Assembly (NCBI RefSeq): GCF_000732725.1
Contig: NZ_JPNB01000003.1
Location: 124,001 to 188,000 of the forward strand
DNA: 64,000 nucleotides
Origin: Kineothrix alysoides
Lineage (GTDB): Bacteria > Bacillota > Clostridia > Lachnospirales > Lachnospiraceae
Direction: 5' to 3'
The position numbers were made by a program, and so were the translations under genes. This document shows, one piece after another, positions 7,195 to 22,263 of this stretch. How positions within the stretch are numbered: position 1 is the first letter of the stretch; every line of letters begins with the position of its first letter. The notes beneath the pieces are model-generated. The model worked only from the letters and a program-made list of their open reading frames with translations. It was not told where the DNA came from and searched no databases.

Positions 7195-7230
7195 ACTCCC
7201 GTAACCAGCCGTTTCGGCAGCACAGCTTTT
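7195..7230. repeat. Dispersed 36-bp intergenic repeat, copy 1
   Basis: This stretch matches 32150-32185 at about 29 of 36 positions, including the uninterrupted block GTTTCGGCA followed by CACAGCTTTT. Both copies lie behind the promoter of a minus-strand regulator gene. Confidence 0.5.
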
Positions 7231-7294
7231 GTTGCGCGCGCAGCTGCGTATCTATGGTTTCTGTAATAGGAGCATTTTCCTATTGCAGAAAAAA

Positions 7295-7332
7295 ATACCC
7301 TTTTGTATTAATATTTCAATACAAAAGGGTAT
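7295..7332 (-). terminator. Rho-independent terminator of the agr operon
   Basis: A perfect 15-bp stem (7295-7309 with 7318-7332, ATACCCTTTTGTATT and its complement) and an 8-nt loop. Read on the minus strand it is followed by a run of seven T. It lies 30 nt past the agrD stop codon and ends the agrA-agrC-agrD transcript. Confidence 0.9.
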
Positions 7333-7361
7333 TCGACAAAATAAGTATAATAAGCACCGAC

Positions 7362-7505
7362 CTACTTCTTAAATTTTTTTATTCCCACCGGCTGCTTAGG
7401 TTGATGCAGAACATATACACATCTGCTGTCTGCGGCCACCTCCACAGATTTACGTGCGATTTTCTCCATCAAGGTTGCTGCTACATTCTTTTCGTTCTTA
7501 GTCAT
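7362..7505 (-). CDS. agrD: AgrD-like cyclic lactone autoinducer prepeptide
   Basis: A 47-residue peptide. It has an amphipathic N-terminal part (MTKNEKNVAATLMEKIARKS), an alanine-containing bridge, one cysteine (Cys29) in DSRCVYVLHQP, and a charged proline-containing tail ending GIKKFKK. This is the architecture of clostridial AgrD precursors: AgrB would cut behind about the fourth residue after Cys29 and close a thiolactone ring, here plausibly CVYVL. AGGAGG (7516-7521) lies 10 nt before the ATG. It follows the AgrC-like kinase on the same strand and precedes a strong terminator. No agrB is adjacent; the only one in the window is at 21142-21726. Confidence 0.85.
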   Translation of the reverse strand: MTKNEKNVAATLMEKIARKSVEVAADSRCVYVLHQPKQPVGIKKFKK

Positions 7506-7568
7506 GATTTACATACCTCCTTTTTGTGATATTGCTGTTTTATGTATTGCTGTTAAGATTATATCGAT

Positions 7569-7630
7569 ATTGTACCTCTTTTTTTTATACTTTCATGCTA
7601 TATGTTGAAATTCCGGGACAGCATGTCATT
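7569..7630 (-). promoter_or_regulatory. agrD promoter with AgrA-type binding site
   Basis: On the minus strand AATGACATG (7630-7622), 5 nt, then CCGGAATTTCAACAT (7616-7602) lie 27 nt before a TACAAT -10 box (7574-7569). The ACAT cores are 21 bp apart, two helical turns, as in LytTR regulator sites. The same 29-bp element with the same 27-nt spacing precedes agrB at 21060-21121. It overlaps the stop codon of agrC, so agrD could be expressed separately from agrA and agrC. Confidence 0.75.
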
Positions 7631-8930
7631 TTTCCCCGAGACTTCCATACATAACTACTGTTACCTGAAACATTCCTCCCTGATCCGATATCTTCATCTG
7701 TCCGCGGTAGCAGGCTGCTGCCTGCTCCACCGACAACAGGCCGAGGCCGTGACAGTGTGCATCCGGCTTGGTGCTTAAGAACCTCCCCTCCGCGTCTCTC
7801 CTCCCGCTTCCTTCATAGGGATTTCTCACAGTTACCTGCAGTACCCCCTTGACATAGGAAGCATCCAGATGAATGTATCCCTTTCCGGGCTCCAGCTTCC
7901 GGCAGGCTTCCAACGCGTTCTCAAGCAGATTGCCCAGGATGATGACCAGATGGCTCCCTTGAAATGGCAAGCCTGCAGGAAGGAACACATCCGCTTCAAA
8001 CGCTATCCCCTCCCTCCGGGCCAGGGCACATTTGTGGTTCACCAAAGAGTCTACTACGATATTGCCGCTGCGAAACGCCTCCGCAGGCTGTCCGGCAATC
8101 CCATCATCCAAAAGGCCCTGCAGATAGAGCGCTGCATCTTCCGCATCCCCCGCCTGCACCATGCCCAGAATTCCCGACAGATGGTTCTTCATGTCGTGCC
8201 GCATCCGCCGCAACTCCAGATACAGGCTCTCCTGTTCCTGCGCCTGACGGCCGCACAGCTCCAACTGTTGCTCATACAGACGATTCTGTTCCCGCAGCTC
8301 CGCATCCCGGGCCATCCAGTCATAAACCTCGAAAATCACGTAGCTTACCAGCAGAAGCAGAATACCGGCAGAGACAGCAAAAAAAGAATATTCCCTATGG
8401 ATATAGGCTATCAGGAAGATGTAATGCATCAGATAGATGCTGCATATCGGAATCACCAGAATAGCAAAAAAATATCGGACTGATACATCCCGGCGGTTCC
8501 TGCCCGGCAGACAGCGACCGGCAGTAACGGCAAGGATGAACACCGCCATCTTGGATATAAAACTACCTGCCATCTGCAGACTCTCCCCACCCATGCCAAA
8601 CAGTTCCAGCAGAATGAGAACGATAATCTCCACCAGCATCCATACCGTACAGACAAGCACCGAAAAGGCACACCGCCTTTTCAGGCTCCCGCACCCGGAA
8701 AGGGATGCCGTAAGAAATACAAGCAGTATATTACATGCCAACATCAGATGAGAAGGCAGGGCTGAGCCCGGACCTGAAAATACTTGGAAAACATAATAAA
8801 GAAACCAGCCTGCGTATCCCGGCAGAGATTTATGGAGCGGACCGAAAAAAGCCTTCATGCACCGCTGCATAATGAGCAGATGGAGGACCGGCAGGAGCAA
8901 ATCCGGCAAAAACGGAAAAGGAGTACTCAT
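7626..8930 (-). CDS. agrC: AgrC-like sensor histidine kinase
   Basis: A 434-residue membrane kinase. About six hydrophobic segments fill residues 1-200; a coiled-coil linker (about 205-240) leads to the H-box RRMRHDMKNH with His245 as phosphoacceptor. The GHKL ATPase follows, with N-box LGNLLENALEAC near residue 330 and a GLGLLSVEQ lid. This is the HPK10/AgrC pattern: peptide sensing in the membrane, phosphotransfer to the LytTR regulator. The ATG at 8930 overlaps the stop of the regulator gene (ATGA); the longer frame to 8963 would lie inside that gene. The likely ligand is the product of agrD directly downstream. Confidence 0.88.
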   Translation of the reverse strand: MSTPFPFLPDLLLPVLHLLIMQRCMKAFFGPLHKSLPGYAGWFLYYVFQVFSGPGSALPSHLMLACNILLVFLTASLSGCGSLKRRCAFSVLVCTVWMLVEIIVLILLELFGMGGESLQMAGSFISKMAVFILAVTAGRCLPGRNRRDVSVRYFFAILVIPICSIYLMHYIFLIAYIHREYSFFAVSAGILLLLVSYVIFEVYDWMARDAELREQNRLYEQQLELCGRQAQEQESLYLELRRMRHDMKNHLSGILGMVQAGDAEDAALYLQGLLDDGIAGQPAEAFRSGNIVVDSLVNHKCALARREGIAFEADVFLPAGLPFQGSHLVIILGNLLENALEACRKLEPGKGYIHLDASYVKGVLQVTVRNPYEGSGRRDAEGRFLSTKPDAHCHGLGLLSVEQAAACYRGQMKISDQGGMFQVTVVMYGSLGEK

Positions 8931-9667
8931 TCTATCACCGTCTTCCCACCGGCAATCTCGCACAGACGCTGCCGGACAGACTTCTGCCTGTCTTCACTGA
9001 TCTTAAGCTCCATCTCCTTTCCTCCAAAGCAGAGGAGGATGCCTGAAAAATTCATATTACGTATGTAATCATAATTGACCAAAAAAGACTGATGGATGCG
9101 AAGAAAATAGCTGCGGCTCTCCAGAATGCTCTCTTCCACATCGTTGAGCTTTCCATAGAACTGTTCCCAGCCTCCATCCTGCAAGAAAATATAGACAACC
9201 CGATTGCGGCTCTCAAAATACACAATATCCTTCAAAGCGAGTTTGCGCATTCTCCTGTTAAAGGCGAATTGGAAATATACCTCTGTTTCTCCAATACGCT
9301 GACAGGCCTCCCGAAAGTAACGCCGGAAGCGCTCCGTATCCAGTGGCTTCGAAAGGAAGCGGAAAGGCTCCACCTCAAACAACTCCCTGAGATACTGGTC
9401 ATATCCCGACACATAGATGAGCAGCACGGACCGATCCATCTCCCGGATGCCGTGTGCTGCCCTGATTCCATCCACATTCTCCATTTCAATATCCAGAAAG
9501 ATTATCCCGTAACGTTGTCCTTCCCGCATGGCTGCCAGGAGTGTATCCCCGCCAAAAAACACGTCCGTCTCCACCTGGATGGCCAGGTCACGGCTCTCCC
9601 GCATTACCGCAGTCTCCAGACTACCGGTAAATGTAGTATTATCGTCGCAAATCGCTATCTTAAGCAT
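8927..9667 (-). CDS. agrA: AgrA-like LytTR response regulator
   Basis: A 246-residue protein. The receiver domain (residues 1-120) has acidic pocket Asp8/Asp9, phosphorylated Asp59 in IIFLDIEM and Lys107 in FLSKPLD. The LytTR DNA-binding domain (about 135-240) contains RRMRKLALKDIVYFES and RIHQSFLVNYDYI. LytTR proteins bind two direct repeats about 21-22 bp apart, as found at 7602-7630 and 21060-21088. The ATG at 9667 is preceded by AGAGGGG; the frame upstream of it is an unlikely extension. It is the first gene of the agrA-agrC-agrD operon. Confidence 0.9.
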   Translation of the reverse strand: MLKIAICDDNTTFTGSLETAVMRESRDLAIQVETDVFFGGDTLLAAMREGQRYGIIFLDIEMENVDGIRAAHGIREMDRSVLLIYVSGYDQYLRELFEVEPFRFLSKPLDTERFRRYFREACQRIGETEVYFQFAFNRRMRKLALKDIVYFESRNRVVYIFLQDGGWEQFYGKLNDVEESILESRSYFLRIHQSFLVNYDYIRNMNFSGILLCFGGKEMELKISEDRQKSVRQRLCEIAGGKTVIE

Positions 9668-9811
9668 TTTTCCCCTCTTACTTCCTTCTGGTGCCTTGCA
9701 GAAGCCCGTCGACCTCCTTCTGTGCCGTCCCCTGCAATCATCGCACACAGATAACATCTAAGTTTTCATTCAATCGTCATTGACTAATTAGATAGATATG
9801 TCAATACAATT

Positions 9812-9840
9812 ATTATATTCACCTTCCCGCACATTTGCAA
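9812..9840 (-). promoter_or_regulatory. Sigma-A promoter of agrA
   Basis: On the minus strand TTGCAA (9840-9835) and TATAAT (9817-9812) are separated by 17 nt. A short inverted repeat, ATTGAC at 9779-9784 and GTCAAT at 9800-9805, lies at the predicted transcription start and may be an operator. The rest of the 592-nt gap (9668-10259) holds the palindrome at 10023-10072 and no recognisable gene. Confidence 0.6.
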
Positions 9841-10022
9841 TATGAGCAGGTCATGTAATGTCAGAAAATGTTACTATTCAGTATTCGTCATCATAGCAAT
9901 AATTCATACAAAGAAATACTGCTGGGTAGTATTTTTCGCTGGCAAAGTGCGGGTTTTCTGTAAACTCTGTTCATAAAAACACCTTATTGGGGCAGCACTT
10001 GTTGAACAGGTGCTAATTAATA

Positions 10023-10072
10023 AAACAGACATAACGGAATGATATACATCATAACATCCGCCATGTCTGTTT
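10023..10072. terminator. 50-bp nested palindrome, probable bidirectional terminator
   Basis: AAACAGACAT (10023-10032) pairs with ATGTCTGTTT (10063-10072). Inside it, CGGA pairs with TCCG and ATGAT with ATCAT. Both exits carry short T-runs. It lies about 190 nt past the last gene of the lantibiotic immunity operon and could end that transcript. Confidence 0.55.
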
Positions 10073-10259
10073 TGGAGAGATAATTCTACTCAAATACTAT
10101 TCGGTTGACTACATATTTTTTGTATTCTTCCTGTTCTTTTCAGTCATTTGTATTAACATCTCTCTTTGTTAAAGCCTTATTATTTTTTTCATTGCCGCGT
10201 TCCTAAGCCCCAAAAACTATAAAGCAGAAACATTCCTTAAGAAATACATGACTGTCTTC

Positions 10260-10556
10260 TCATTGCAGAAAGTTTAAAAGCAGTGCCATTGCAACGATTC
10301 CAACCATTAGCAGCGCCCAAAAGGAGCTGATTACCATAGAAATAATGTTCACAGTACTCCGGCTCTCACTGCTCTTTACACATATAATAGAAAGGATCAA
10401 TCCGGCAAGAACGAAGATAATATTGCCCCCGGCACAAATCGTACGTACCTCATCCGATAAGCTGATATTCAGAAATGTCAGAATAAGAGTTACCAGCGGA
10501 AGAATACTGACAACTAATGCCACCATACTCATAGTTTCTCGTTTTTTATTTTCCAT
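10260..10556 (-). CDS. Small four-helix membrane protein of the lantibiotic immunity operon
   Basis: A 98-residue protein with a short charged N-terminus (MENKKRET) and three to four hydrophobic segments covering nearly all the rest. It is the last gene of the immunity operon, 7 nt behind the second ABC permease. From memory, the ruminococcin A cluster of R. gnavus has an extra small gene (rumH) after rumFEG, so this may be its counterpart. A role in self-immunity is inferred from position only. No catalytic motif is visible. Confidence 0.7.
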   Translation of the reverse strand: MENKKRETMSMVALVVSILPLVTLILTFLNISLSDEVRTICAGGNIIFVLAGLILSIICVKSSESRSTVNIISMVISSFWALLMVGIVAMALLLNFLQ

Positions 10557-10563
10557 TTTTTAT

Positions 10564-11328
10564 TTACCTCATTTCCTTTTTCCCAAATCGTGTAACAGCT
10601 ACTAAAAGTACCAATGCAAAAATCATTATCGCGCAAGGCAGGAACGGAAATACTGCAAACGCGGTATCAGAAGACTCCGTTGTAAAATCATGCAAAGAGC
10701 AGGATACCAGATATCCGCTGTAGCAGTAAGGATAGACAATCCATAGCGGTGTATTGGCAACCAAAACCCCCGGAATAACAAGAAATAAATTTAGGCCTAA
10801 AGAAAGCAGCGGTTTTTCAAATAAAATGGTGATTGCCCACATAGTGGCCATACACGGCAGCATCGTAAGGAATAAACCAATGCACCATTTTAACAGATAG
10901 AACAACGGCAAGGCCTCCGTAATACCTGATGTATTGGCAGCAATCAGGCCGGCTGCAACAAAAACTACAAGAAAAACCACCATTTCCATAAAAAGATAAA
11001 ATAGCAGCACACAAAATTTCGCCAATGACAATGTATACCTGCTTACCGGCAAGGCAAGCATCTTTAAAATACCGTTGTTCTGAGTCTCTCGCCCTGCAAT
11101 CATCACGCACACAACAATCATGCTAAAAGGCAGTAAATAATATGCGTATACCAATGCGCTTTGGATAAACATCGCCGGCCATGCATCCGTATAATCCGGC
11201 GTAAAATAACTGCTTAGGTTCGCTACCCCGGATGCCACCACCAGAAGAGGGGCAATAAAAATCAGGGGAGTAATTTTAGAACGCTTTACCTTTTTTAACT
11301 CGATATTAAGTAATTCAAAAAAACTCAT
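10564..11328 (-). CDS. rumG: Lantibiotic immunity ABC transporter permease, LanG type
   Basis: A 254-residue membrane protein with about six hydrophobic segments, of the LanG/MutG permease family. With the LanE-like permease and the LanF ATPase it should form the exporter that removes mature lantibiotic from the producer membrane. The frame starts at 11340, but AAAGGA abuts that ATG; the ATG at 11328 is better spaced. It is separated from lanE by about 50 nt and followed after 7 nt by the small membrane protein. Confidence 0.85.
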   Translation of the reverse strand: MSFFELLNIELKKVKRSKITPLIFIAPLLVVASGVANLSSYFTPDYTDAWPAMFIQSALVYAYYLLPFSMIVVCVMIAGRETQNNGILKMLALPVSRYTLSLAKFCVLLFYLFMEMVVFLVVFVAAGLIAANTSGITEALPLFYLLKWCIGLFLTMLPCMATMWAITILFEKPLLSLGLNLFLVIPGVLVANTPLWIVYPYCYSGYLVSCSLHDFTTESSDTAFAVFPFLPCAIMIFALVLLVAVTRFGKKEMR

Positions 11329-11378
11329 AATAATGCTCATTCCTTTCGGTTTGTTTCATTTGTTTAATTAGTCTTTCC

Positions 11379-12104
11379 TTACTCATAGCGCAGCTTTTCT
11401 GCCATCCATAAACCTATTTCCAGAAAAATAACTGTCTCGATCAAAGAAACAATAAGAATCATATAATCAGGCTGCGCACTCATGGCCACGGCAGGCTTTA
11501 ACATGATAATAAATGGATGTATCAGCAGCAATTCCGCGTCTGATGTCGCCAATGCCATACCGCTCAAAAATCCTGACACGCCTATGCCTAAGGGAATCCA
11601 CATATTTTCAAATCTGGACGACACCAAAAGCATAAAGGAGAGAACAGGCATTGATGTAAGAAAGGAATAACCTGCAAAGATTATCAGCGTTTTCATCTCA
11701 AAGGAACCTTTTGGCAAATCATTCATTCCTATTCTCATTAAAGCCAGATTCTGAAAGGAGACCACCAGCAAAAACAGCATGGTTAAAATCAAAAACTTAC
11801 ATAAATACATTCCCGCAACGCTTACGGGAAGCATGTGGATTCTTTTTATCGCGTTACCCTTAAACTCCATTTCATAAATCATACAGGCAGCCACCACAAT
11901 GCCGAACATATTCAGCACCATGATCATACCATATAGCTGTGTCAGCAGAACATCCATCGGGGCAAGCGGTAAAGCGAGCAGAGTCTCCCTTCGCACGAAG
12001 AAATTGATAAAGGCGTATGCAGCTCCCAGAACGCCCACTGCCAGCAATACCCCAGTGACACCGGTCCGTTTCTCCTTTTGAAGCTCAATTGCAAGCATTC
12101 TCAT
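11379..12104 (-). CDS. rumE: Lantibiotic immunity ABC transporter permease, LanE type
   Basis: A 241-residue permease of the LanE/MutE family with six hydrophobic segments, beginning MRMLAIELQKEKRTG. Its ATG overlaps the TGA of the lanF ATPase gene (4 nt), and a GAAGGAGG ribosome binding site lies inside the end of lanF. It is the partner of the LanG permease in producer self-protection. Confidence 0.86.
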   Translation of the reverse strand: MRMLAIELQKEKRTGVTGVLLAVGVLGAAYAFINFFVRRETLLALPLAPMDVLLTQLYGMIMVLNMFGIVVAACMIYEMEFKGNAIKRIHMLPVSVAGMYLCKFLILTMLFLLVVSFQNLALMRIGMNDLPKGSFEMKTLIIFAGYSFLTSMPVLSFMLLVSSRFENMWIPLGIGVSGFLSGMALATSDAELLLIHPFIIMLKPAVAMSAQPDYMILIVSLIETVIFLEIGLWMAEKLRYE

Positions 12105-12865
12105 AGTTTTGCCTCCTTCTTTCTGGCAAGATTATCCTTCTCAATGATGGATAAAAACATATTTTCCAAATTGTCCGCCGCAAAGCTCTCCTGCGACGCA
12201 TCTCTTCGTAAGTCCTCCATTCTTCCCTCAAACAGCAGTCTCCCATGATTCAGGATACCAATATCATCTGCAATCAGTTCAATTTCAGACAGCATATGGG
12301 ATGAAATCAAGATAGTACAATTATAAAGTGTGGGTAAGCTTTTCACCAAACTACGGATTTCATGAATACCGGTTGGATCAAGTCCATTTGTAGGTTCATC
12401 CAGAATAAGGATAGGCGGCCGCCCAAGTAACGCTCCCGCAAGTCCCAGGCGTTGCTTCATGCCCAGTGAGTACTTTTTGGCCAGCCTGTTCCCGAATTCC
12501 TCAAGACCAACCAACTCCAATGCATCATCTACAGAGCTTTTCGGCAGCTCTAAAATCTGACGAATGATATCAAGATTCTCACGCCCTGTCAGGTTGGCAT
12601 AAAAGGAAGGCGACTCGATAAACGATCCAATCTCCTTTAAAATTGTCAATCTATCGGCGGGAAAATGCTTTCCATCAATAGCAAAGCTGCCTTCTGTGAG
12701 AGTTGTCAATCCCAGCAGCATCTTCATAGTAGTGGATTTACCCGCCCCATTCGGACCAAGAAAACCATATATACTTCCTTGCCGGATATGAAGCGAAACA
12801 CCGTTGACGGCAGTAAAGTTTTTATATTTTTTTGTCAACTGTTCTGTTGTAATAATATATTTCAT
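12101..12865 (-). CDS. rumF: Lantibiotic immunity ABC transporter ATPase, LanF type
   Basis: A 254-residue ABC ATPase of the bacitracin/lantibiotic immunity group: Walker A GPNGAGKST, a Q-loop with E in place of Q (IGSFIESPSFY, typical of LanF), signature YSLGMKQRL, Walker B LILDEPTNGLDP and the switch histidine in SSHMLSE. The E-loop separates LanF proteins from other ABC ATPases. The ATG at 12865 has AAGGAG 8 nt upstream, better than the frame start at 12895. It is the first gene of lanF-E-G, behind the motif at 12925-12949 shared with the lanA promoter. Confidence 0.92.
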   Translation of the reverse strand: MKYIITTEQLTKKYKNFTAVNGVSLHIRQGSIYGFLGPNGAGKSTTMKMLLGLTTLTEGSFAIDGKHFPADRLTILKEIGSFIESPSFYANLTGRENLDIIRQILELPKSSVDDALELVGLEEFGNRLAKKYSLGMKQRLGLAGALLGRPPILILDEPTNGLDPTGIHEIRSLVKSLPTLYNCTILISSHMLSEIELIADDIGILNHGRLLFEGRMEDLRRDASQESFAADNLENMFLSIIEKDNLARKKEAKL

Positions 12866-12924
12866 AGCAACATCTCCTTTTGATACTTTTATCATACAGC
12901 GCTAACCTAACATTTACATTCTCG

Positions 12925-12949
12925 TATCCTTACTTTTACCTTACTTTTT
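12925..12949 (-). promoter_or_regulatory. Probable RumR binding site before rumF
   Basis: Read on the minus strand it is a tandem repeat, AAGTAAGG then AAGTAAGG with an 11-bp period (one helical turn), the usual form of OmpR-family sites. The same sequence with one change is found before the lantibiotic structural genes at 18485-18508 in the same orientation. A TATGAT -10 candidate follows 28 nt downstream. Confidence 0.7.
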
Positions 12950-12995
12950 ATCCGGCCGCCGTACGCCGTAAATTTTGTAATGTAACGGATAGTTT

Positions 12996-15050
12996 TTATT
13001 CAAAAAACTCCCCATAAGAGGGAAACTTCTGTAAAAGCTGTTCATGTATCCCTTGATATACCCTTCCCTCTTTTATGTATATTACTTCGTCCGCATAGCT
13101 TATCATGCTTAATTTGTGTGTAGAAATAAATACAGTCTCATCTCTTAAAATACCATTCCGGCCGATAAGGTTATTCATAATCTTTTCTTCATCAATAACA
13201 TCTATGTTGCTTGTAGCTTCATCCAGTAAATATATTCCGGCCTCTTTGATCAGGCATCTTGCCAGACAAATTCTCTGTTCCTGCCCACGAGAAAGGTTTT
13301 TTCCTTTTGATATTTCCGTGGCCCATTTGAGGGGCTGCCTGTCAACAATTTCCTCCAGACCGGTTGCCTGGCTGACTCTTGCCAGCCTTTCATTTGTGCA
13401 TTGCTGACCAAATAATACATTTTCTAATATGCTTCCGTCCAAAATGGAAGTGTCCTGATCCAGATATACCGGCTTTTGCTTATTGGCAGAATCAAATGCT
13501 ACTGTACCGTGATAATCATTAAACAGATTCGCCAAAACCTTTAATAAGGTAGATTTTCCGCTTCCCGATATTCCGATTACCGCATATTTTTTTCCCTTTT
13601 TTATCTGTAAATTAACATCTTCCAAACATCGGAAGCTTCCATAATAATAGGACATATTTCGTACGGATATCTCTTCATTATTGTCTAAGTGTTCCACTTT
13701 TCGTTCCCTGTCCTGCATGAATTTCTCATCCAATAATTCGTTCGTCTTATCTATATTGGGCAGCACTGTATATAAGGAATTAAATGCCTGCCCCAACGTC
13801 ACTACATTCTGAACGACTAAATACAACAACGGTAATAATGCTATTTGGCTGAAAATATCATCCTCCCTGTTACAGATTATGTTTACGATACTGACTACTA
13901 TCGGCACAATGTATGTGAATATATTGGTTAATACATTTTGTATACTTTGCAAAATAACAAGCTGACCATAACGCTCCGCTTGCTCTTCATTTTCACTATG
14001 CCATTTTTCCATGAAAACCTTACTCACATCCAAAACCTTAATAGTAGAAATCGTCCTGATTATATTTTCGCTCGTCGTATTAAGCTTAATCACCTTTTGC
14101 GTATACTTATTGCTTTCTATGTATGTCACTTTACTAATGCTGATATAAAAAAACAAATATAAAACATTTGCCGTAAGAAACAATCCTCCCAGAAACAGGT
14201 TTTTCCAGAATAAAACCGTCTGTACCAAAATAACGGTACATAATGCTATAAAGGAAGGTACTATCTTTAACAGCAACGCATCTTTGATCATTCCCCGCGC
14301 GTTAATGCGATATAATAAATCACCGTTACTTCTAAATGAAAAAAACTTGTAGTTCTTACACACCAGCTTATCGACTAATCGATTTCCATATATCTGTTCA
14401 TATAAAACATTAAACTTTTTAGTCAGATACCCTTGAATCATACTTCCTGCTCCCAGCAAGACAACTGCAGCTATCAGCAGGATACCCAGGTTCAAATAGG
14501 AATTGTCTTTACTCACAGCCGAATACATATAAGAATAACTCATAGCTACAATCTGGGTGAAAACCGAAGTTATAAGTAATCCTGATAAGATTTTAATAAG
14601 TTCCTTATTTTTCAAGAAACCTAATAATTCCCGGTGCTTTACAACCTTTACTTTCACATCGTTCCTTGCTTTGTCGATCTTTACTACAACTTTACTGTAA
14701 ATACCTTGAAATTCAGCATAGGAGTAGGCAATCCGCCCGATGGCAGGGTCAACGCCTATAAACTTGTTCTTTGTTATTTTATTAATCACAATGAAATGCC
14801 CATTATTTACATAAGCTATTATAGGTAACATCGATGAATTAAGCTTTTCATATTCCACTTTATAGCCTTCAACAGAAAATCCATATTCCCCCAATGCATC
14901 TCTTAGCTGCAGTACATTGCTTCCGGCCATTGACAGTTCTACCTTTTCCACCAGTCGATAGACCGGAACTGTGCATTTATATGTATCCATGAGCATGGCC
15001 GCACATGTGAGAAGGCAATCCGATTGATTTGTCTGCAATATCACTTTCAC
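12996..15050 (-). CDS. rumT: Lantibiotic transporter-protease, LanT (C39 peptidase-ABC)
   Basis: A 684-residue three-domain protein. The N-terminal C39 peptidase has Cys12 in NQSDCLLTC, His85 in NNGHFIVIN and Asp101. A six-helix ABC membrane domain (about 150-420) and an ATPase domain follow, with Walker A GISGSGKST, signature LSRGQEQRI and Walker B IYLLDEAT. It cuts the leader after the double glycine and exports the modified peptide. The GTG at 15050, with AAGGTGG 8 nt upstream, is chosen over a GTG at 15062. It follows lanM by 17 nt. Confidence 0.92.
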   Translation of the reverse strand: MKVILQTNQSDCLLTCAAMLMDTYKCTVPVYRLVEKVELSMAGSNVLQLRDALGEYGFSVEGYKVEYEKLNSSMLPIIAYVNNGHFIVINKITKNKFIGVDPAIGRIAYSYAEFQGIYSKVVVKIDKARNDVKVKVVKHRELLGFLKNKELIKILSGLLITSVFTQIVAMSYSYMYSAVSKDNSYLNLGILLIAAVVLLGAGSMIQGYLTKKFNVLYEQIYGNRLVDKLVCKNYKFFSFRSNGDLLYRINARGMIKDALLLKIVPSFIALCTVILVQTVLFWKNLFLGGLFLTANVLYLFFYISISKVTYIESNKYTQKVIKLNTTSENIIRTISTIKVLDVSKVFMEKWHSENEEQAERYGQLVILQSIQNVLTNIFTYIVPIVVSIVNIICNREDDIFSQIALLPLLYLVVQNVVTLGQAFNSLYTVLPNIDKTNELLDEKFMQDRERKVEHLDNNEEISVRNMSYYYGSFRCLEDVNLQIKKGKKYAVIGISGSGKSTLLKVLANLFNDYHGTVAFDSANKQKPVYLDQDTSILDGSILENVLFGQQCTNERLARVSQATGLEEIVDRQPLKWATEISKGKNLSRGQEQRICLARCLIKEAGIYLLDEATSNIDVIDEEKIMNNLIGRNGILRDETVFISTHKLSMISYADEVIYIKEGRVYQGIHEQLLQKFPSYGEFFE

Positions 15051-15067
15051 GCGAAATACCACCTTTC

Positions 15068-17827
15068 TTATATATTCTCAATTGCCAGTATGGACGGCAG
15101 CTTTCTGTCTTTACAGCGGTCCAGCATATATTGAACTCCGGCTTCTCCAACCATGAATCCGATCGCATTTATCGCTCCCGGAGCGCCTATACAGCTATAT
15201 CCTTGCTGCTTTGCCGTTTCCATGGTACGAAGAATATACGTTTTTTCTTCGGGTATTTCCCCGAATAACGTATCATAGGAAAGCAGAAAATCTACAAAGG
15301 CAAAATTGCCATGGCATAGAGAAAAGTTTTGTGAATTTAATTTTTCCGATTTAATTGCCTCACTATATTGGAACAGCATTTCATCCAGATCAGCTTCACT
15401 CATCTCTATAATTCCATCCCTTATAAAATTCCATTTCCTCCATATCAATCGTGCATGCATAATCCCACAAGAGCCATGGCACCAAAAGTGTGAATATTCT
15501 TCCTTGCTGCTTCTTAAATCCTTCCACATATGCATTCCGGCATATAGTTGTTTTTCCTTTCTCCACAATTCTCTTGCCAGTTCTGCAAAGTACTCGCATT
15601 TTTCGATTCTGTTCATGCACATAACCGATGTAATAATACCTGAATATCCATGTGCAAAACTTGCATAATTAAAGTCTTTCTCCATAATATTCATTTTAAA
15701 AGTGGACATGAAATATCTTTTTAGTACAGGAATCATTTCTTTTGCAAATTCATCTGTTTCATATCTGGCAAAGAAATATATAACTGCTGAGTGAATTCCC
15801 GATAAAGTATCATAACTGTTTGTTTTCACTATATTGGTTTTAATCAGTTCTTTGATTCCCATAATATATGGTTCTATCTCATCATATCCGGCAAACCTGC
15901 TCTCCTTAATTTGCACCATAAAAGCATATATACCTGACAATCCGCAGAAATAGGAAATATTGTACTCTTCAAACGTCCCTGACCGATAAGCCATTACAAT
16001 CGTACGATAAATTTTATTTACAATTGTTTTTGCCAATTCATCTTTACTATTCAAATATTCGGCAAGGTACATATAACCTATCCCTACCATTCCTGAATAC
16101 AAAGACCAATCTAATACCGCATATTCAAGCTGTTCTTTATCGTTAACCATCAGACCGATCCAACTGATTGTGCCATCGTCTCCCTCAATTCTATTATCGT
16201 CGATATTCTTTCTCAATAGTTCATTGCTGTCAAACCTGATTTCCTTTTTCGCGCTTGCCTCCATACTCTTATATTCGATTCCCAGCGCTATACTCGACGA
16301 TATCGAATCCATGACAAGCTTTTTTTGTCTCGCCAGCATTTGTACATCCGTCTGTTCTTCCAATATCCCGGCTATCTTTTTCATATTAAACTCATGCATA
16401 TCCAATATTTTTTGCGTTGTTTTTCCATGATACCCGTATACATAATTTAAACGGATGTTCCAATAAAAGCTGGGAATATTACTTCTGCATAACTCTGTCA
16501 CTTCGTAGAGATAAACACTTTGATTAAACTGATTGCTCCTTTTTAAACCGCCAAGCAGTTTTTCAAATAATTCAGGCTCATGGCGGTATCTGGGGTCGCT
16601 CTTTATCCGTACTATCTGAGAATATCCTTTCGTCATATTCAGAATAATGCGCGATTCTATTCTATATAAATTGCTTAGAATATAATTTATAATTTCAGCT
16701 TTCTCTTCTCTGAATATATTCTCAGCCTGACCAAATCCATTTATTATTTGGTCACCATAAAGTAAGGGATCTGCCTTCTCATCCGGTAAATGACTATATT
16801 GTGTAATAATCTCCGGTTTTGTGTAAATATACATATCATCTCTGTACTCATTTTCAACTTTTTCCGTAATAATTTTTATGCCTTTATTGGATAGACAGCT
16901 TACATCACCTCCGAAATATTCCGTCATGGAAAATATCGGTATCAAGCCTGTAGCCATTACTCCATACAATAGTCTTTGCACTGCCTTATATTGCGCATCA
17001 TATTCAAATTTGTGAGTGTCAAAAAACAAATAAGAAGAAAGAAGCGTTTCAACATCTGTGATGACAGGATATTCTCCGTGAGCAATCAAGTTCTCGTAAT
17101 GCATATCGTTCATTCCTAACAAATATGCAACAAACAGCAGCTTTCCGTAATTGAAGTAAAACTGACTGACTGCACTTTCATCAGCAGCCCTTTCATATTC
17201 AACAAATTTTACCCATGTCCCCTCACTTTCATAGATACAGCCATATTGACTCGTATATTCTGCTTCAAAAAAATAACGGATCACACCCTTTAAAAAGTTT
17301 AAATTATCTCCGCTTGTAGGCTTGAATACAATCTTCTTATTTGAGGTAAAAGTTATAACCAATACACATTTATCGTTATGCCAGTCACCGGAATTTGCAA
17401 TGTTAATAATACCCTCTGATTCTGTATTGAAAAAATATTGACAGATATCCGATTTGTTTTTTTGGAATAGATTGATTACGCTCAGAACATATATACATTT
17501 TCCTTTCATCTCTTCATATAATTGCGTTTTCATTGCCGGGAACATCTCTTCCATACTATCAATGCAGTATTGATTATTAACAAACCAAAGATAACGTTCC
17601 TGTGGTGTGCCGCCTGCCAGCCTGCCTTCCACCCTGTTCACATTCATACAGTAAAGTAAGGATTTGAAGCATCTTTTAAATATCTCTTTCTCCATCGTTT
17701 CCTTTAAATACGGAACTTTCTCAATATGAAAATCTATTTTTTCATCGTCTTCTATTTCTCTTATAATATATTCAAAAATATATTCGACATATATTTTACA
17801 AAAATCCTTATCCATATTAATAACCAT
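15068..17827 (-). CDS. rumM: Class II lanthipeptide synthetase, LanM
   Basis: A 919-residue bifunctional enzyme. The N-terminal dehydratase part (DUF4135, up to about residue 570) uses ATP to phosphorylate and eliminate Ser/Thr hydroxyls; the conserved stretches KPTSGDNLN and DMHYENLI are visible. The C-terminal LanC-like cyclase has FCGLSG (about 629), WCHGSCG (about 783) and LCHGNF (about 838), which supply the Cys, Cys, His zinc ligands for thioether formation. The length is normal for LanM. It should act on the two identical RumA peptides just upstream. The start at 17827 is preceded by AGGA; an ATG four codons later is also possible. Confidence 0.95.
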   Translation of the reverse strand: MVINMDKDFCKIYVEYIFEYIIREIEDDEKIDFHIEKVPYLKETMEKEIFKRCFKSLLYCMNVNRVEGRLAGGTPQERYLWFVNNQYCIDSMEEMFPAMKTQLYEEMKGKCIYVLSVINLFQKNKSDICQYFFNTESEGIINIANSGDWHNDKCVLVITFTSNKKIVFKPTSGDNLNFLKGVIRYFFEAEYTSQYGCIYESEGTWVKFVEYERAADESAVSQFYFNYGKLLFVAYLLGMNDMHYENLIAHGEYPVITDVETLLSSYLFFDTHKFEYDAQYKAVQRLLYGVMATGLIPIFSMTEYFGGDVSCLSNKGIKIITEKVENEYRDDMYIYTKPEIITQYSHLPDEKADPLLYGDQIINGFGQAENIFREEKAEIINYILSNLYRIESRIILNMTKGYSQIVRIKSDPRYRHEPELFEKLLGGLKRSNQFNQSVYLYEVTELCRSNIPSFYWNIRLNYVYGYHGKTTQKILDMHEFNMKKIAGILEEQTDVQMLARQKKLVMDSISSSIALGIEYKSMEASAKKEIRFDSNELLRKNIDDNRIEGDDGTISWIGLMVNDKEQLEYAVLDWSLYSGMVGIGYMYLAEYLNSKDELAKTIVNKIYRTIVMAYRSGTFEEYNISYFCGLSGIYAFMVQIKESRFAGYDEIEPYIMGIKELIKTNIVKTNSYDTLSGIHSAVIYFFARYETDEFAKEMIPVLKRYFMSTFKMNIMEKDFNYASFAHGYSGIITSVMCMNRIEKCEYFAELARELWRKEKQLYAGMHMWKDLRSSKEEYSHFWCHGSCGIMHARLIWRKWNFIRDGIIEMSEADLDEMLFQYSEAIKSEKLNSQNFSLCHGNFAFVDFLLSYDTLFGEIPEEKTYILRTMETAKQQGYSCIGAPGAINAIGFMVGEAGVQYMLDRCKDRKLPSILAIENI

Positions 17828-17880
17828 ACCTTTCCTATCCCTGCAAGTTTCGAATCACATGCACAAAATCTATTATATAA

Positions 17881-17910
17881 GCCGCTTAGATTATATGTTT
17901 TCTAAGCGGC
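17881..17910 (-). terminator. Intra-operon stem-loop between rumA and rumM
   Basis: A perfect 9-bp stem, GCCGCTTAG (17881-17889) with CTAAGCGGC (17902-17910), and a 12-nt loop. It lies between the structural genes and lanM without a real T-run. Such partial terminators or processing sites usually keep the prepeptide mRNA more abundant than that of the modification genes (inference). Confidence 0.6.
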
Positions 17911-17953
17911 CTATTAATAAATCCCATTTGAGAACATTAATTTAGTTGTTATA

Positions 17954-18100
17954 TTATGAGCAACATGTAAACAGGAACTGCCACGTGTTCATTGCACATT
18001 CATGGCTGATCGTTTTAATTACACCATTGCCGCCTCCCAAAATCTGCTCTAATTCTTTTTCTTCCATCGGATTTGTCAAGTTAAGAATGTCATTTCTCAT
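17954..18100 (-). CDS. rumA: Ruminococcin A-like lantibiotic prepeptide, copy 2
   Basis: A 48-residue prepeptide identical in protein sequence to copy 1 but different at several silent positions. Residues 1-23 are the leader (MRNDILNLTNPMEEKELEQI, ending LGG). The 25-residue core has KTISHEC, NTWQFLF and a terminal TCCS, giving the ring-forming Thr/Ser/Cys pattern of the lacticin 481 group. Against mature ruminococcin A as I recall it, there are L5I, N13A and an added C-terminal Ser. GGAGGAAGAAAAC precedes the ATG. It is the template for LanM. Confidence 0.93.
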   Translation of the reverse strand: MRNDILNLTNPMEEKELEQILGGGNGVIKTISHECAMNTWQFLFTCCS

Positions 18101-18127
18101 GTTTTCTTCCTCCTTATTATGTTCTTG

Positions 18128-18274
18128 TTATGAACAGCATGTAAACAGGAACTGCCATGTGTTCATTGCACATTCGTGGCTAATAGTTTTAATTACACCA
18201 TTGCCGCCTCCCAAAATTTGCTCCAGCTCTTTTTCTTCCATCGGGTTCGTAAGATTAAGAATGTCATTTCTCAT
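18128..18274 (-). CDS. rumA: Ruminococcin A-like lantibiotic prepeptide, copy 1
   Basis: A 48-residue class II lanthipeptide precursor, first gene of the biosynthetic operon and 27 nt before copy 2. It has a double-glycine leader (residues 1-23) with the acidic MEEKELEQ segment recognised by LanM and LanT, and a 25-residue core containing three Cys. Core and leader are identical to copy 2, so the duplication raises gene dose rather than diversity. A TGGAGGAAAAAAC ribosome binding site is present. The product should be a lipid II-binding bacteriocin active against related Gram-positive bacteria (known for the family). Confidence 0.94.
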   Translation of the reverse strand: MRNDILNLTNPMEEKELEQILGGGNGVIKTISHECAMNTWQFLFTCCS

Positions 18275-18484
18275 AGTTTTTTCCTCCATTTTTCTCAAAC
18301 AGGATTATGGTCATATCGTAACATTTATTGTTAATCATGATGAATGCTAGTAACTTTTCCCCCTTTTTCATGTAATTTTTCCCTTACCAGCCAAAATAAC
18401 CTCCCTGTTCTCTCCTTATCCGCGTTTTATCTGCAAATAACTTCCTGTTTCACTAAAATTCCTGCTTCATTCACATAACTGCCT

Positions 18485-18508
18485 TATCCTTACTTTTACC
18501 TAACTTTT
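18485..18508 (-). promoter_or_regulatory. Probable RumR binding site before rumA
   Basis: A tandem AAGTTAGG-AAGTAAGG repeat (minus strand, 11-bp period) with one difference from the element before rumF at 12925-12949. The spacing to the first rumA start is about 210 nt, so a long leader follows. The region 18275-18484 otherwise shows no gene. Confidence 0.68.
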
Positions 18509-18539
18509 CCGTATAAAGACTTCAATGTGATTATTTTCA

Positions 18540-18548
18540 TGATATAAT
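18540..18548 (+). promoter_or_regulatory. Extended -10 promoter of rumR-rumK
   Basis: TGATATAAT combines a TG extension with a perfect TATAAT (18543-18548). No good -35 box is visible. Transcription would start near 18555 and leave a leader of about 207 nt that contains the structured repeat at 18696-18765. Confidence 0.6.
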
Positions 18549-18695
18549 GAGAACCATAAATATCCTGCTAAAGCGGCGGTCAGAGCTTATCTTTCTATCT
18601 TTCTGATAAATGGATGAAACACTGCAAACTTTACATCTGCCAGCAATACAATAACTAACCGGGATATTGTTCATGCCGCGCATCGGTATATTTGT

Positions 18696-18765
18696 AAGGC
18701 TGAAAGAAAAAAGCTTTCAACTATTGATTTTGAGTCCGCCGAAGCGGATATGGGGTATCATTATG
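18696..18765 (+). repeat. Structured leader repeat, copy 1 (rumR translation start)
   Basis: A 70-bp element, also present at 19463-19532 and, as a 57-bp core, at 20996-21052. It folds into a first hairpin (GCTGAAAG with CTTTCAAC, one mismatch here), a linker CTATTGATTTTG, a second hairpin (TCCGC with GCGGA), then ATGGGGTATCATT and the ATG of rumR. The GGGG is the only ribosome binding site in view. Confidence 0.8.
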
Positions 18766-19464
18766 GATAAATTATTTTTAAACATCAAGAAAATTATGCT
18801 TGTGGATGACGAACCTGAGTTGTTAAAAATGGTAACTGAAATTTTGAAGGATGATGGTTTTCTCAATATTATAACAGCAGCTTCCTTCCATGAAGCAGTT
18901 TCCACCAGCAAGAAAGAAAAACCTGATTTAGCAATTTTAGATGTCATGCTCCCGGATGGAGATGGGTTTTCCCTCATGCAGCAGATGCATACATTCACTC
19001 ACATCCCTATCATATTTCTAACTGCCAAAGATGAAGCATCTGACAAATTAGCCGGACTTGGTTTAGGAGCTGATGATTATATTATCAAGCCATTTATGCC
19101 GCAAGAGTTATTACTGCGTGTTTATGCCGTCCTTCGCCGATGCTATAAAGAAGATGTATCGCTCGTGAGCTTAGAAGACTGCATTATTGATTTCAGCCGG
19201 GCAGAAATCAATAAAAATGGTGAAACGGTAGCTTTAACTGCCAAAGAATATACTCTATTGGAAATCCTCGCCAGAAATGATGGTAAAATTGTCACCATAG
19301 ATTCCATATGCGAAGCCCTCTGGGGTGATAATCCATTTGGATATGAGAATAGTTTAAACACACATATTCGTCGTATTAGGGAAAAAATTGAATCTGATCC
19401 CTCCAAGCCTGTTTCACTTGTTACAGTGAAAGGATTAGGGTATAAGTTGAATTTGAGGAAATAA
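18763..19464 (+). CDS. rumR: OmpR-family response regulator of the lantibiotic cluster
   Basis: A 233-residue regulator with a receiver domain (Asp15/Asp16, phosphorylated Asp60 in AILDVMLPD, Lys109 in IIKPFMP) and a C-terminal winged helix (about 135-233). It is the LanR of the cluster and should bind the 11-bp direct repeats at 12925-12949 and 18485-18508. The frame is open from 18667, but that part translates the repeat element, and the ATG at 18763 follows the GGGG of the repeat. rumK follows after 65 nt that are entirely copy 2 of the repeat. Confidence 0.92.
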   Translation: MDKLFLNIKKIMLVDDEPELLKMVTEILKDDGFLNIITAASFHEAVSTSKKEKPDLAILDVMLPDGDGFSLMQQMHTFTHIPIIFLTAKDEASDKLAGLGLGADDYIIKPFMPQELLLRVYAVLRRCYKEDVSLVSLEDCIIDFSRAEINKNGETVALTAKEYTLLEILARNDGKIVTIDSICEALWGDNPFGYENSLNTHIRRIREKIESDPSKPVSLVTVKGLGYKLNLRK

Positions 19465-19532
19465 GGTTGAAAGAAAAGCGCTTTCAACTATTGATTTTGA
19501 CTCCGCCAAAGCGGACATGGGGTATAATTATG
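19463..19532 (+). repeat. Structured leader repeat, copy 2 (rumK translation start)
   Basis: Same 70-bp length and layout as copy 1, with about 60 matching positions. The first stem is perfect here (GTTGAAAG with CTTTCAAC) and the second is TCCGC/GCGGA. It begins at the rumR stop codon and ends with the ATG of rumK. In both copies the reading frame through the repeat is open, giving similar KEKxFQLLILxPPKR peptides. Confidence 0.82.
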
Positions 19533-20894
19533 AGAAAATCCTTTGGGAAATATATATCGGGATACATTATTTCTTTTATAGTATTTACAGCTATCCTGGC
19601 ATTAATTAACATCTTCCTTTTTGGCTGGACCTTTTATAATACATTCTCTCAAGACTACGGTGAAGGCTCACCTCAAAACATGTTAGATGAAATAACTGCT
19701 GCTTCCACCGCCACATCGCCTGCCGGTCCGGCAGTGGAAAAGCTGAGAGACAAGAATATATGGGCTATGTATGTAAATCAGGATGGCGGCTTGTTTTGGT
19801 CCGTTGATTTACCGTACGGAGTGCCATCTCACTATACTCTTCAGGATGTTGCTGTTTTTGCCAAAGGCTATATTTCTGATTATCCCGTTTTTATCCGCAG
19901 TACGGAGAATGGGCTCATTGTGCTGGGATATCCGCCAAACAGTTATACAAAACTACTGAGTAATTATTATTCCATCAGCACCATAAAAAAATTACCTGCT
20001 TTTACAATTATCGTACTGGTTATAGATTTTCTTCTGCTCTTTTTTGCATACTATTTATCCAAACAAAAAATTATAAAAAATACCGAGCCTATCACCAATG
20101 CAATCGATGCTCTTTCTGACGGTAAGCCAATATCTCTATCTATTCGCGGAGAATTATCGGAAGTTGCAGAAAGCCTTAATAAGGCATCGGGCATTATAAA
20201 CAAACAAAATGAAGCACGCGCAAATTGGATCAGCGGTGTTTCCCATGATATAAGGACGCCCTTATCTATCATTATGGGGTATGCCGATAAACTTACTTCT
20301 GCCTCTTTCTTAGATAGCTCCGCCAGGGAAGATGCGGAAGTCATCAAATGGCAGAGCATAAAAATCAGAGATCTTGTTCAAGATTTAAATTTGGTTTCAC
20401 AGCTCGAGTATGAAATGCAGCCGCTAAATAAAAAAAAGATACGCTTTTCAAAGCTTATCAGGGCATACGTTGCCGACCTGCTTAATATCGGCCTATCCGA
20501 CCTATATTCTATTGAAGTAGAAATCTCTCCGCAGGCAGAGACCATTATATTTGAATGCGATGAAAGGTTAATGACAAGGGCCGTATCCAATTTAATCCAA
20601 AACAGTATGAATCATAATCCACAGGGTTGTAAAATCTATCTTACCCTTGATGTTTACGAACAGTCAATTCTATTGGCCGTTGCAGATAATGGGATTGGTA
20701 TTTCATCTGAAAAGTTATTAGAATTGCAAAGTCGTCCTCACTATATGAAAAGTGTAGATGAGCGTTTGGACTTGCGACATGGATTGGGCTTGCTTTTGGT
20801 GCAAAAGATCATAGAATCTCATAATGGCAGCTTACAAATAGAAAGTGAAATAAAATCGGGCTATAGAACTACTTTAATTTTCCCCTCGTCATAG
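19530..20894 (+). CDS. rumK: Sensor histidine kinase of the lantibiotic cluster
   Basis: A 454-residue kinase with a membrane segment at about residues 8-32, an extracellular domain of about 120 residues and a second membrane segment near 160-180. HisKA has His239 in GVSHDIRTP, and the HATPase domain has NLIQNSMNH, DNGIG and GLGLLLVQKI. It is the partner of RumR. In R. gnavus the homologous pair is reported to control ruminococcin A production in response to trypsin (recalled, not checked). The TTG start at 19467 is rejected because it lies in the leader repeat. Confidence 0.92.
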   Translation: MRKSFGKYISGYIISFIVFTAILALINIFLFGWTFYNTFSQDYGEGSPQNMLDEITAASTATSPAGPAVEKLRDKNIWAMYVNQDGGLFWSVDLPYGVPSHYTLQDVAVFAKGYISDYPVFIRSTENGLIVLGYPPNSYTKLLSNYYSISTIKKLPAFTIIVLVIDFLLLFFAYYLSKQKIIKNTEPITNAIDALSDGKPISLSIRGELSEVAESLNKASGIINKQNEARANWISGVSHDIRTPLSIIMGYADKLTSASFLDSSAREDAEVIKWQSIKIRDLVQDLNLVSQLEYEMQPLNKKKIRFSKLIRAYVADLLNIGLSDLYSIEVEISPQAETIIFECDERLMTRAVSNLIQNSMNHNPQGCKIYLTLDVYEQSILLAVADNGIGISSEKLLELQSRPHYMKSVDERLDLRHGLGLLLVQKIIESHNGSLQIESEIKSGYRTTLIFPSS

Positions 20895-20995
20895 GATCAA
20901 ACAATATACATTTGTACAGGACCGATACTTATCTCTTCACCTGCATCTCCTCTGCAGAATATAGTCGCAAAATACGACCTTAATAAAAAAAGGGG

Positions 20996-21052
20996 AAGGT
21001 TGAAAAAAAGCACTTTCAACTATTGATTTTAAGTCCTCTAAGCGGACATGGG
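20996..21052 (+). repeat. Structured leader repeat, copy 3 (degenerate)
   Basis: The 57-bp core of the element again, with GTTGAAA/TTTCAAC, the CTATTGATTTT linker and GTCC/GGAC. It has one base less than copies 1 and 2. An ATG still stands 8 nt after the GGG, but it opens only a two-codon frame. The AgrA-type site of agrB begins 8 nt further on, so this copy looks like the remnant of the leader of a lost gene. Confidence 0.75.
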
Positions 21053-21059
21053 ACGGAAA

Positions 21060-21121
21060 AATGACATGAAATACCGGAATTTCAACATGCATTATATCAA
21101 TCCGCACTTTTCCTCTATAAT
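21060..21121 (+). promoter_or_regulatory. agrB promoter with AgrA-type binding site
   Basis: AATGACATG (21060-21068), 5 nt, CCGGAATTTCAACAT (21074-21088), 27 nt, then TATAAT (21116-21121). The two ACATG cores are 21 bp apart. Sequence, internal spacing and distance to the -10 box equal those of the agrD promoter at 7569-7630. No -35 consensus is visible, as expected for an activator-dependent promoter. Confidence 0.75.
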
Positions 21122-21141
21122 AGATACGAGGTGATTCTATC

Positions 21142-21726
21142 ATGGAATATTTATCAAACAGATTAACGGATTACATATTAAAAAAAGGAGCTATCCAGGA
21201 AGAAAATTATGATGTCTACCAGTATGGATTTCAATGCTTTTTAGAAATTTCCATCAGTGTTATATGCAGCATAATTATTGGCTTATCTCTTGATATGATG
21301 CTCGAATGCATATTATTTTTCCTTTTTTTTATTCCGATGAGATCTTATAGTGGCGGAATACACATGGAAACTTATTTTGCCTGCCTGTTTTTCTCGTGCA
21401 TTATACTTATATCTACTTTATTGGCAGTAAAATACCTGGCCATTCCATCGATTATCTCTTTTCTTATTTATTTAATATGTATCATTACAATAAAACTAAT
21501 CGGCCCTGTTAACCATCCAAACAGAGAGGTAGATAGTCAGGAAAATCGTTTATTTATAAAAAGAACTGATGTAACCTTATTCCTCAGTCTCGTTATCGCT
21601 GTTGTATTTATTCTGACAAATAATGCAAGATATATCTTTCTTCAATCTATTGTATTTTTGTTTATATTCATTACCTCATTAGCCGGAAAGATAAAATATT
21701 ACAAAAATCTGTCACCAAATGACTGA
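21142..21726 (+). CDS. agrB: AgrB-like peptide-processing membrane protease
   Basis: A 194-residue membrane protein with about five hydrophobic segments. The catalytic pair is intact: His74 and Cys81 in SGGIHMETYFAC, seven residues apart as in staphylococcal AgrB. The family cuts the C-terminal tail of AgrD and forms the thiolactone. A GAGGTG ribosome binding site precedes the ATG. No agrD-like peptide is encoded next to it; the only candidate substrate in the window is at 7362-7505, whose promoter carries the same binding element. An alternative is an agrD outside the window. Confidence 0.9.
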   Translation: MEYLSNRLTDYILKKGAIQEENYDVYQYGFQCFLEISISVICSIIIGLSLDMMLECILFFLFFIPMRSYSGGIHMETYFACLFFSCIILISTLLAVKYLAIPSIISFLIYLICIITIKLIGPVNHPNREVDSQENRLFIKRTDVTLFLSLVIAVVFILTNNARYIFLQSIVFLFIFITSLAGKIKYYKNLSPND

Positions 21727-21786
21727 ATAATTACACGCATATACGTTTTCCATTTCATGAATCGTATCTGCTTCAAGGAACCGGAC

Positions 21787-22263
21787 TTATTGCGGCCTCT
21801 GTTTCTTCTTACCGCAGTAATCCGAAGTACTCACTTTATACACGCATACGCTGTTCGCCTGCACCTCGTTGAACTCTACATCTCTATCCGCCTGATGCTT
21901 CATCAGAAGGGAAAGAGCCTTGCATTTTTCCTTCGTATCTTCGATAAATTCCACGCTGCCCGTACCTATAATGCTGGAGAAATAATAGCCGCTGTTACAA
22001 GGCGTTTCCGCATGTACAGGCATTCCTTCCCTGGCGATATCGAAGCATACACCGCTGTTTTTATGTAAGATATCCAGCTTTCTGCCTTCCTTTGCACTAT
22101 GAAAGTACAAGGTCAGCCCGTCCTCATCGAATTCATAACCGAAGTTCAACGGAACCACATACGGCTTTCCATCGTCTACCATAGCCAGATGGCAGACTTT
22201 ACATGCTTTTATTATTTTTTCTATCGTTTCCCTATCGGTCACTTCTCTGTCTTTTCTTCTCAT
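21787..22263 (-). CDS. Pyridoxamine 5'-phosphate oxidase family (NimA-like) flavoprotein
   Basis: A 158-residue split-barrel FMN-binding protein starting MRRKDREVTDRETI. The segment CHLAMVDDGKPYVVPLNFGY is typical of the NimA/PNPOx-like family. Members reduce small compounds such as nitroimidazoles or are of unknown role. The ATG at 22263 has AGGAG 7 nt upstream and is preferred over the frame start at 22311. It is convergent with agrB. Confidence 0.83.
   Translation of the reverse strand: MRRKDREVTDRETIEKIIKACKVCHLAMVDDGKPYVVPLNFGYEFDEDGLTLYFHSAKEGRKLDILHKNSGVCFDIAREGMPVHAETPCNSGYYFSSIIGTGSVEFIEDTKEKCKALSLLMKHQADRDVEFNEVQANSVCVYKVSTSDYCGKKKQRPQ

Follow-up and report, generated by a model that had tools for sequence, protein, structure and literature searches.

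Matching AgrA-type promoters before agrD and a distant, probably cognate agrB in Kineothrix alysoides

In a 64,000-nucleotide stretch of the Kineothrix alysoides genome (contig NZ_JPNB01000003.1, positions 124,001 to 188,000; hereafter, the window), the genes of an agr quorum-sensing system are found in two places, with agrD at 7.4 kb, near agrA and agrC, and agrB at 21.1 kb. The distance between agrB and agrD is about 13.6 kb, and agrB is 11.5 kb away from agrA, beyond a lantibiotic cluster of the lacticin-481 type. We propose, with a probability of about 0.75, that these genes constitute a single quorum-sensing circuit, in which the lantibiotic cluster stands between agrB and the other genes and the response regulator AgrA feeds back on both agrD and agrB. 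Since both genes carry the same rare promoter, AgrA can probably still switch them on together. If so, a quorum circuit can be split physically with its logic kept via one shared promoter.

The shared element, an AgrA-type box of the form AATGACATG-N5-CCGGAATTTCAACAT, occurs in the window in two exact copies with all 24 fixed bases intact, i.e., in the agrD promoter (7602–7630, minus strand), where it overlaps the agrC stop codon, and in the agrB promoter (21060–21088, plus strand). The copies were recovered by pattern, matrix, and model searches. The ACAT cores within the box are 21 bp apart, and in both promoters 27 nt separate the box from a −10 box (TACAAT at 7569–7574, minus strand, for agrD; TATAAT at 21116–21121, plus strand, for agrB). 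Each promoter has two direct repeats, spaced by roughly two turns of the helix, at a fixed distance upstream of the −10 box. A sequence-only reading of the window had reported these two boxes with the same distances, and all of this is confirmed in the sequence; the identity between the copies extends five bases further upstream than the limit set at that time (GGAAAAATGACATG). The observation that the segment between the box and the −10 box is not conserved also holds: the two spacers agree in 6 of 27 positions, approximately the chance level, and the upstream flanks of the boxes are unlike each other. Because of these differences a recent duplication of the region is disfavored, as had been argued; the stronger statement, that the match is functional rather than a recent duplication, holds only in part, as the box itself may have been copied long ago.

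The box is rare. At up to three mismatches the window has no third copy, and 100 dinucleotide shuffles gave no match. The whole genome (4,676,087 bases in three contigs) has two matches at this threshold, exactly the agrD and agrB boxes, and none for the reversed pattern used as a control. A matrix built from nine sites of related genomes, with the window left out, scores the window boxes at 34.4 and 30.6, compared to 13.0 for the third-best site in the window and 18.3 for the best site in 15 shuffled windows. A sequence-only model trained on 14 aligned promoters of 62 bases, among them those with the two window boxes, detects these boxes in the genome with E-values of 2.1e-9 and 1.8e-7, the next-best hit having an E-value of 0.14 (150 of 4517 first-look candidates scored). 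A chance origin of the paired boxes is rejected by the pattern, shuffle, and matrix scores. Frequent occurrence at unrelated positions, which the sequence-only reading had named as a potential objection, was not seen either: at up to three mismatches the box is present in 1 of 16 genomes of the genus (K. alysoides itself) and in 4 of 397 genomes of the family, i.e., again the own genome and three others with exactly three mismatches, and the reversed control also yielded one match. Two of these three sites (L038 and L040) are situated inside unrelated reading frames, and the third (L039) is near a LytTR gene with 22% identity to the window AgrA. A loosened version of the exact pattern had no matches in viral contigs.

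To compare the locus with its relatives, we scanned species genomes with a two-row AgrA alignment; from the best 80 of 525 confirmed loci, 11 (L041–L051) were retained together with the congener G008. Identity to the window AgrA is 49–66% for L041–L051 and 58% for G008. Ten of the 11 loci are labeled Lachnospiraceae or Butyrivibrio, and L046 comes from a metagenome-assembled genome of Paenibacillaceae. The scan of related genomes suggested earlier thus shows that the box, present only twice in the K. alysoides genome, is conserved with the orthologous agrA-agrC set in all 12 relatives. Recognized by eye under the guidance of the window's element, it stands directly before agrD in nine of the 11 relatives with agrD (L041–L046, L050, L051, and G008); in L048 and L049 it is located after agrC, before another gene that precedes agrD. 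An independent case is L045, where the box is found also before an agrB.

The spacing is conserved as well. With the −10 criterion of T-A-x-x-x-T in at least 4 of 6 positions, a −10 box at exactly 27 nt was observed for 19 of 22 sites, the exceptions being the L045 site before agrB and two sites at 28 nt. The set of 22 excludes L043:30 (score 14.9), where the locus stops short of the −10 box, L045:14225 (score 12.3), which has no −10 box at 27 nt, and matrix hits below about 14. Among ten further sites, chosen by the box alone, eight have the −10 box at exactly 27 nt; the mean in shuffles is 0.30, and none of 5000 shuffles reached eight. The effective number of these further sites is approximately eight, as L048/L049 and L050/L051 are near-duplicates. 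Four of them (L048, L046:14635, L050:9848, and L051:9848) score 14.7–17.6, below the best shuffled window (18.3), and hence are not established by the box score alone; of the six scoring above 18.3, four have the −10 box at 27 nt and two at 28 nt. As these sites show, both the box and the 27-nt spacing are ancestral.

The second line of evidence concerns AgrB. The window agrB (21142–21726, plus strand; 194 aa; PF04647, E 2.7e-38) lies directly behind the lantibiotic two-component genes, on the same strand and 0.25 kb after the kinase gene, where the sequence-only reading had placed it. Residues H74 and C81, which we take to be catalytic, are invariant across eight aligned AgrBs. In a tree of 27 rows (26 different; two paralogue rows partial), the window AgrB is nested among AgrBs adjoining agrC or agrA (96/97 for the group of eight rows, 96/96 for that of ten), and both paralogues from the own genome fall outside this group. 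Hence, as judged from the tree, agrB very likely is the displaced cognate partner of the window agrD-agrC-agrA.

Among the 12 relatives, whose AgrA, AgrC, and AgrD are orthologous to those of the window, agrB is mostly adjacent and in no case displaced together with its box. It is found beside agrC or agrA in nine, degenerate in one, and not found in two; these absences are weak evidence, because several genomes are drafts. The best AgrB matches in the genomes of L044 (73.7 bits) and L047 (39.7) are below the strength of orthologues (237–319 bits). The gene orders vary: agrD is divergent from agrA-agrC-agrB in L041, L042, L043, L045, and L046, and from agrA-agrC in G008, where agrB is degenerate; in L048–L051, agrD and agrC share a strand, and agrA-agrB occupy the opposite one; L044 has the order agrA-agrC-agrD, and no agrD was found in L047. 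While agrB and agrD are not side by side in the window, they are also non-adjacent in the five relatives with a divergent agrD and an intact agrB, so that adjacency is a usual rather than a strict requirement. A search of plasmids retrieved two AgrB records with only 25–27% identity.

The remaining agr genes of the window are encoded on the minus strand. The LytTR response regulator AgrA (8927–9667; PF04397, E 1.1e-15, and PF00072; 58% identity to AgrA of G008) most likely starts at 9667 (MLKIAICDD) rather than with the longer frame to 9757. It is followed by the GHKL histidine kinase AgrC (7626–8963; PF14501, E 5.1e-16; 44% identity to AgrC of G008) and by the 47-aa AgrD (7362–7505), whose TIGR04223 score (E 1.5e-8) is above the cut-off. 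In an alignment of ten rows, Cys29, Pro36, and Pro39 of AgrD are invariant, the P-x-x-P tail motif being present; the predicted ring is CVYVL, before HQPKQP. A terminator-like stem behind agrD (7293–7334, minus strand) was detected by a consensus scan only and consists of a 19-pair stem followed by a T run. The three genes had been described as one operon. The profile matches uphold the gene calls; agrD, however, is better seen as a transcription unit of its own, given the overlap of its box with the agrC stop codon and the terminator-like stem behind it.

Three AgrB genes in the own genome exceed the Pfam cut-off, and two AgrDs are recognized by TIGR04223. A second agrB-agrD pair, at C1:2253 kb, appears intact. 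The existence of such a pair had been named in advance as evidence against a split system; it does exist, but its AgrB belongs to another branch of the tree. The third AgrB (L003; G000:C1:188656-189147) adjoins a response regulator that looks LytTR-like by eye, and no TIGR04223 match was found beside it.

By analogy with the protein families involved, AgrB would cut and cyclize AgrD, AgrC would sense the predicted thiolactone peptide, and phosphorylated AgrA would bind the two repeats of the box and raise transcription from promoters with poor −35 regions. Autoinduction, the simplest reading of the data, would then consist of AgrA driving agrD and agrB through the two matching promoters. Positive feedback on signal production would survive the split because agrD and agrB each own a box, and given the matching promoters the precursor and the protease would rise together despite the separation. 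The element thus offers a sequence-defined, directly testable candidate AgrA promoter for a Lachnospiraceae agr branch. Of the single AgrA regulon postulated earlier, agrD and agrB are retained as probable members, given the conserved promoter type that they share and the AgrB tree, and the bacteriocin genes are not: no AgrA box precedes the lantibiotic genes, no window site other than the two agr boxes scores above 13.0, and the genome has only two boxes. Control of the lantibiotic by AgrA is unsupported, and the link between agr and the lantibiotic is one of place only.

Several points weigh against the proposed circuit. The AgrB of the intact pair at C1:2253 kb might act on the window AgrD in trans, and the long branches of the two own paralogues, for which the tree program issued a warning, make their exact position unsure. 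The window's element guided the visual choice of the training sites for the matrix. The box before agrB in L045 lacks a good −10 box at 27 nt, and in two of the ten further sites the −10 box is at 28 nt. No targets besides agrD and agrB were found in this genome. Finally, AgrA binding, activation, the peptide structure, and the feedback are all predictions from family membership.

The boxes could be bound by a different LytTR regulator, e.g., the one beside the C1:188-kb AgrB, with the agr genes being mere targets. Such systems abound, AgrC-like kinases being present in 15 of 16 congeners, and the regulator adjoining that AgrB does resemble a LytTR protein by eye. However, the box tracks the orthologous agrA-agrC set, as it accompanies the set in all 12 relatives, whereas in congeners other than G008 the model gave hits in only 4 of 14, all partial (E 8.7e-4 to 0.036) and all in genomes without a close AgrC orthologue; the strongest of them, in G004 (E 8.7e-4), falls within a long reading frame, and no gene resembling agr was recognized by eye. 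Moreover, variants of the box change in step between genomes (CGGAATTTCAACAT and CGTATTTATTACGA types). We therefore consider this explanation unlikely.

Two other explanations start from the position of agrB directly behind the lantibiotic two-component genes. One is that the agrB box is a functionless copied relic and that agrB is read from the upstream operon of the lantibiotic regulator; the genes are on the same strand, and the region 20850–21900 yielded no terminator-like site. This is very improbable in view of the 24 fixed bases, which are intact in spite of the unlike flanks, and of the TATAAT box at the conserved distance. According to the other, agrB is part of the lantibiotic cluster and works for it, e.g., in processing or signaling for the lantibiotic, rather than for the window AgrD. 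Although one report (PMC10301443) describes agr genes within or next to lanthipeptide clusters, we find this highly improbable: the lantibiotic exporter has its own C39 leader peptidase, the cluster has its own two-component genes, and both the tree position of AgrB and the identity of its box with that of agrD assign it to the agr genes.

The model was also used to look for other genes carrying the box in 13 genomes, i.e., the 12 relatives and the genome of L053. It produced 27 hits at an E-value of 0.05, 18 of them below 1e-3. The strong hits precede agrD (11 hits, one of them before a second agrD of G411), agrB (one, in L045), a secreted Amidase_6 protein (two, in G413 and G414), a radical-SAM enzyme (two, in G412 and G411:C102), and a 106-aa membrane protein (one, in G416); the last one, in G417, is behind agrC, before an open reading frame (ORF) without a Pfam match. 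Some hits, including the extra sites of G412, G413, G414, and G416, are in the training set of the model; the sites of G411:C26, G411:C102, G417, G421, G422, and G008 are outside it. The second agrD of G411 (L182; G411:C26:123) has a radical-SAM gene about 0.7 kb downstream, and an additional agrD copy (L183; G411:C102:1-123), truncated where the contig ends, is located upstream of the G411:C102 site. Radical-SAM hits in G415 (E 0.015) and G413 (E 0.047) are weak and were not counted as firm, since four congeners lacking a close AgrC orthologue produced partial matches with E-values of 8.7e-4 to 0.036. The boxed secreted protein, of 367 aa, is encoded at L043:7880-8983 (Amidase_6) and L044:6804-7907.

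The boxed radical-SAM neighbors appear to tie this agr branch to genes of the RiPP type (ribosomally synthesized and post-translationally modified peptides) in relatives; no boxed radical-SAM or amidase target was found in the K. alysoides genome. As the box precedes operons for peptide maturation, additional agrD genes, and in two cases agrB, one might tentatively regard the box as a copyable regulon tag of a Lachnospiraceae-centered agr branch, whose circuit is separable, can be placed in RiPP clusters, and stays wired; in K. alysoides the wiring would have shrunk to the two genes that make the signal, agrB being retained in the lantibiotic locus. We think this generalization possible rather than likely. 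Were it true, the response of signal output to active AgrA would be steeper than linear, owing to the two boxed inputs.

Comparison with known systems draws on the accessible parts of the cited papers. In Staphylococcus aureus, the promoters that AgrA acts on have a poorly spaced −35 region, and the protein binds a pair of direct repeats immediately upstream of them (PMC4227749). The S. aureus system (agrBDCA with promoters P2 and P3) has the same four kinds of components, and the promoter layout in the window resembles it; in contrast, agrB and agrD of the window are far apart, with one box each, and no RNAIII-type effector RNA was found by Rfam at E-values up to 1 in 6900–22000. In Clostridium autoethanogenum, agrD2-agrC2 is located away from an AgrB, and the distant AgrB1 has been proposed to process AgrD2 in trans (PMC8748961); in that species a single AgrB is assumed to serve both AgrDs, and the text accessible to us names no shared AgrA box. 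Clostridium acetobutylicum has agr in separate units (agrBD and agrCA), linked to the lanthipeptide-type gene CA_C0082, and in Clostridium hungatei agr is beside lanthipeptide genes (PMC10301443). In these two species agrB and agrD stay together and the LanM-like gene is described as an Agr target, whereas the lantibiotic genes of the window have no box. A further paper (PMC6222199), dealing in its accessible part with an OmpR-family regulator, is of no use here. Our literature search, with most subscription journals outside its reach, retrieved no title or abstract naming such an AgrA promoter in this branch or an AgrA box that connects separated agrB and agrD genes.

The lantibiotic cluster between agrA and agrB (10260–18274, minus strand) comprises a small ORF, two permease-like ORFs, an ABC ATPase, an exporter with a C39 leader peptidase domain (PF03412), LanM (TIGR03897, E 2.1e-127), and two tandem precursors of the lacticin-481 family (17954–18100 and 18128–18274; NF040664, E 2.5e-23 each), whose core we assume to resemble ruminococcin A. 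The ATPase and a permease match lantibiotic-immunity models below the cut-offs. A response regulator and a histidine kinase (lanR and lanK), identified by profile matches, follow on the plus strand (18667–20894). In a search for other copies of the cluster, LanM was found at an E-value of 1e-100 in one of 397 family genomes, the own one. In the relative L041, a 95-aa fragment of an exporter ATPase is encoded directly behind agrD (L041:2454-2741), with 64% identity over 87 aa to the window exporter.

The split may have come about by a move of agrB or by insertion of the lantibiotic cluster between agrA and agrB; the linear order D-C, A-B of L048–L051 agrees with the latter. A search of the window at an E-value of 1 gave no trace of the XRE gene located ahead of agrA in several relatives. 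The sequence before the divergent agrD of L045 looks strikingly like a fossil of the end of agrC, but this reading was dropped, as 7.9% of shuffles reach its score; an earlier fossil test with one-sided offsets had found nothing.

A dispersed, leader-like repeat, some 75 nt long and predicted to form two stems, occurs in the window at 18695–18777, before lanR, at 19462–19544, before lanK, and, truncated, at 20996–21056 (plus strand), where it ends directly before the agrB box. The copies before lanR and lanK end in a purine-rich stretch and a start codon; the agrB copy lacks this end and has the box instead. Landing of the agrB unit behind the leader of another gene would fit this structure, and landing of the leader before agrB fits as well. 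Genome-wide, the repeat has 38 matches at an E-value of 1 (33 at 0.0022 or below). No Rfam match identifies it as a known RNA in 6900–22000, and its folding is modestly better than that of shuffles (z from −0.9 to −1.9). In 14 of 20 copies inspected, a frame of at least 60 aa starts 66–69 nt from the repeat start (two of these starts were counted by hand at an in-frame ATG), and the products are unrelated, a pattern reminiscent of a mobile gene leader.

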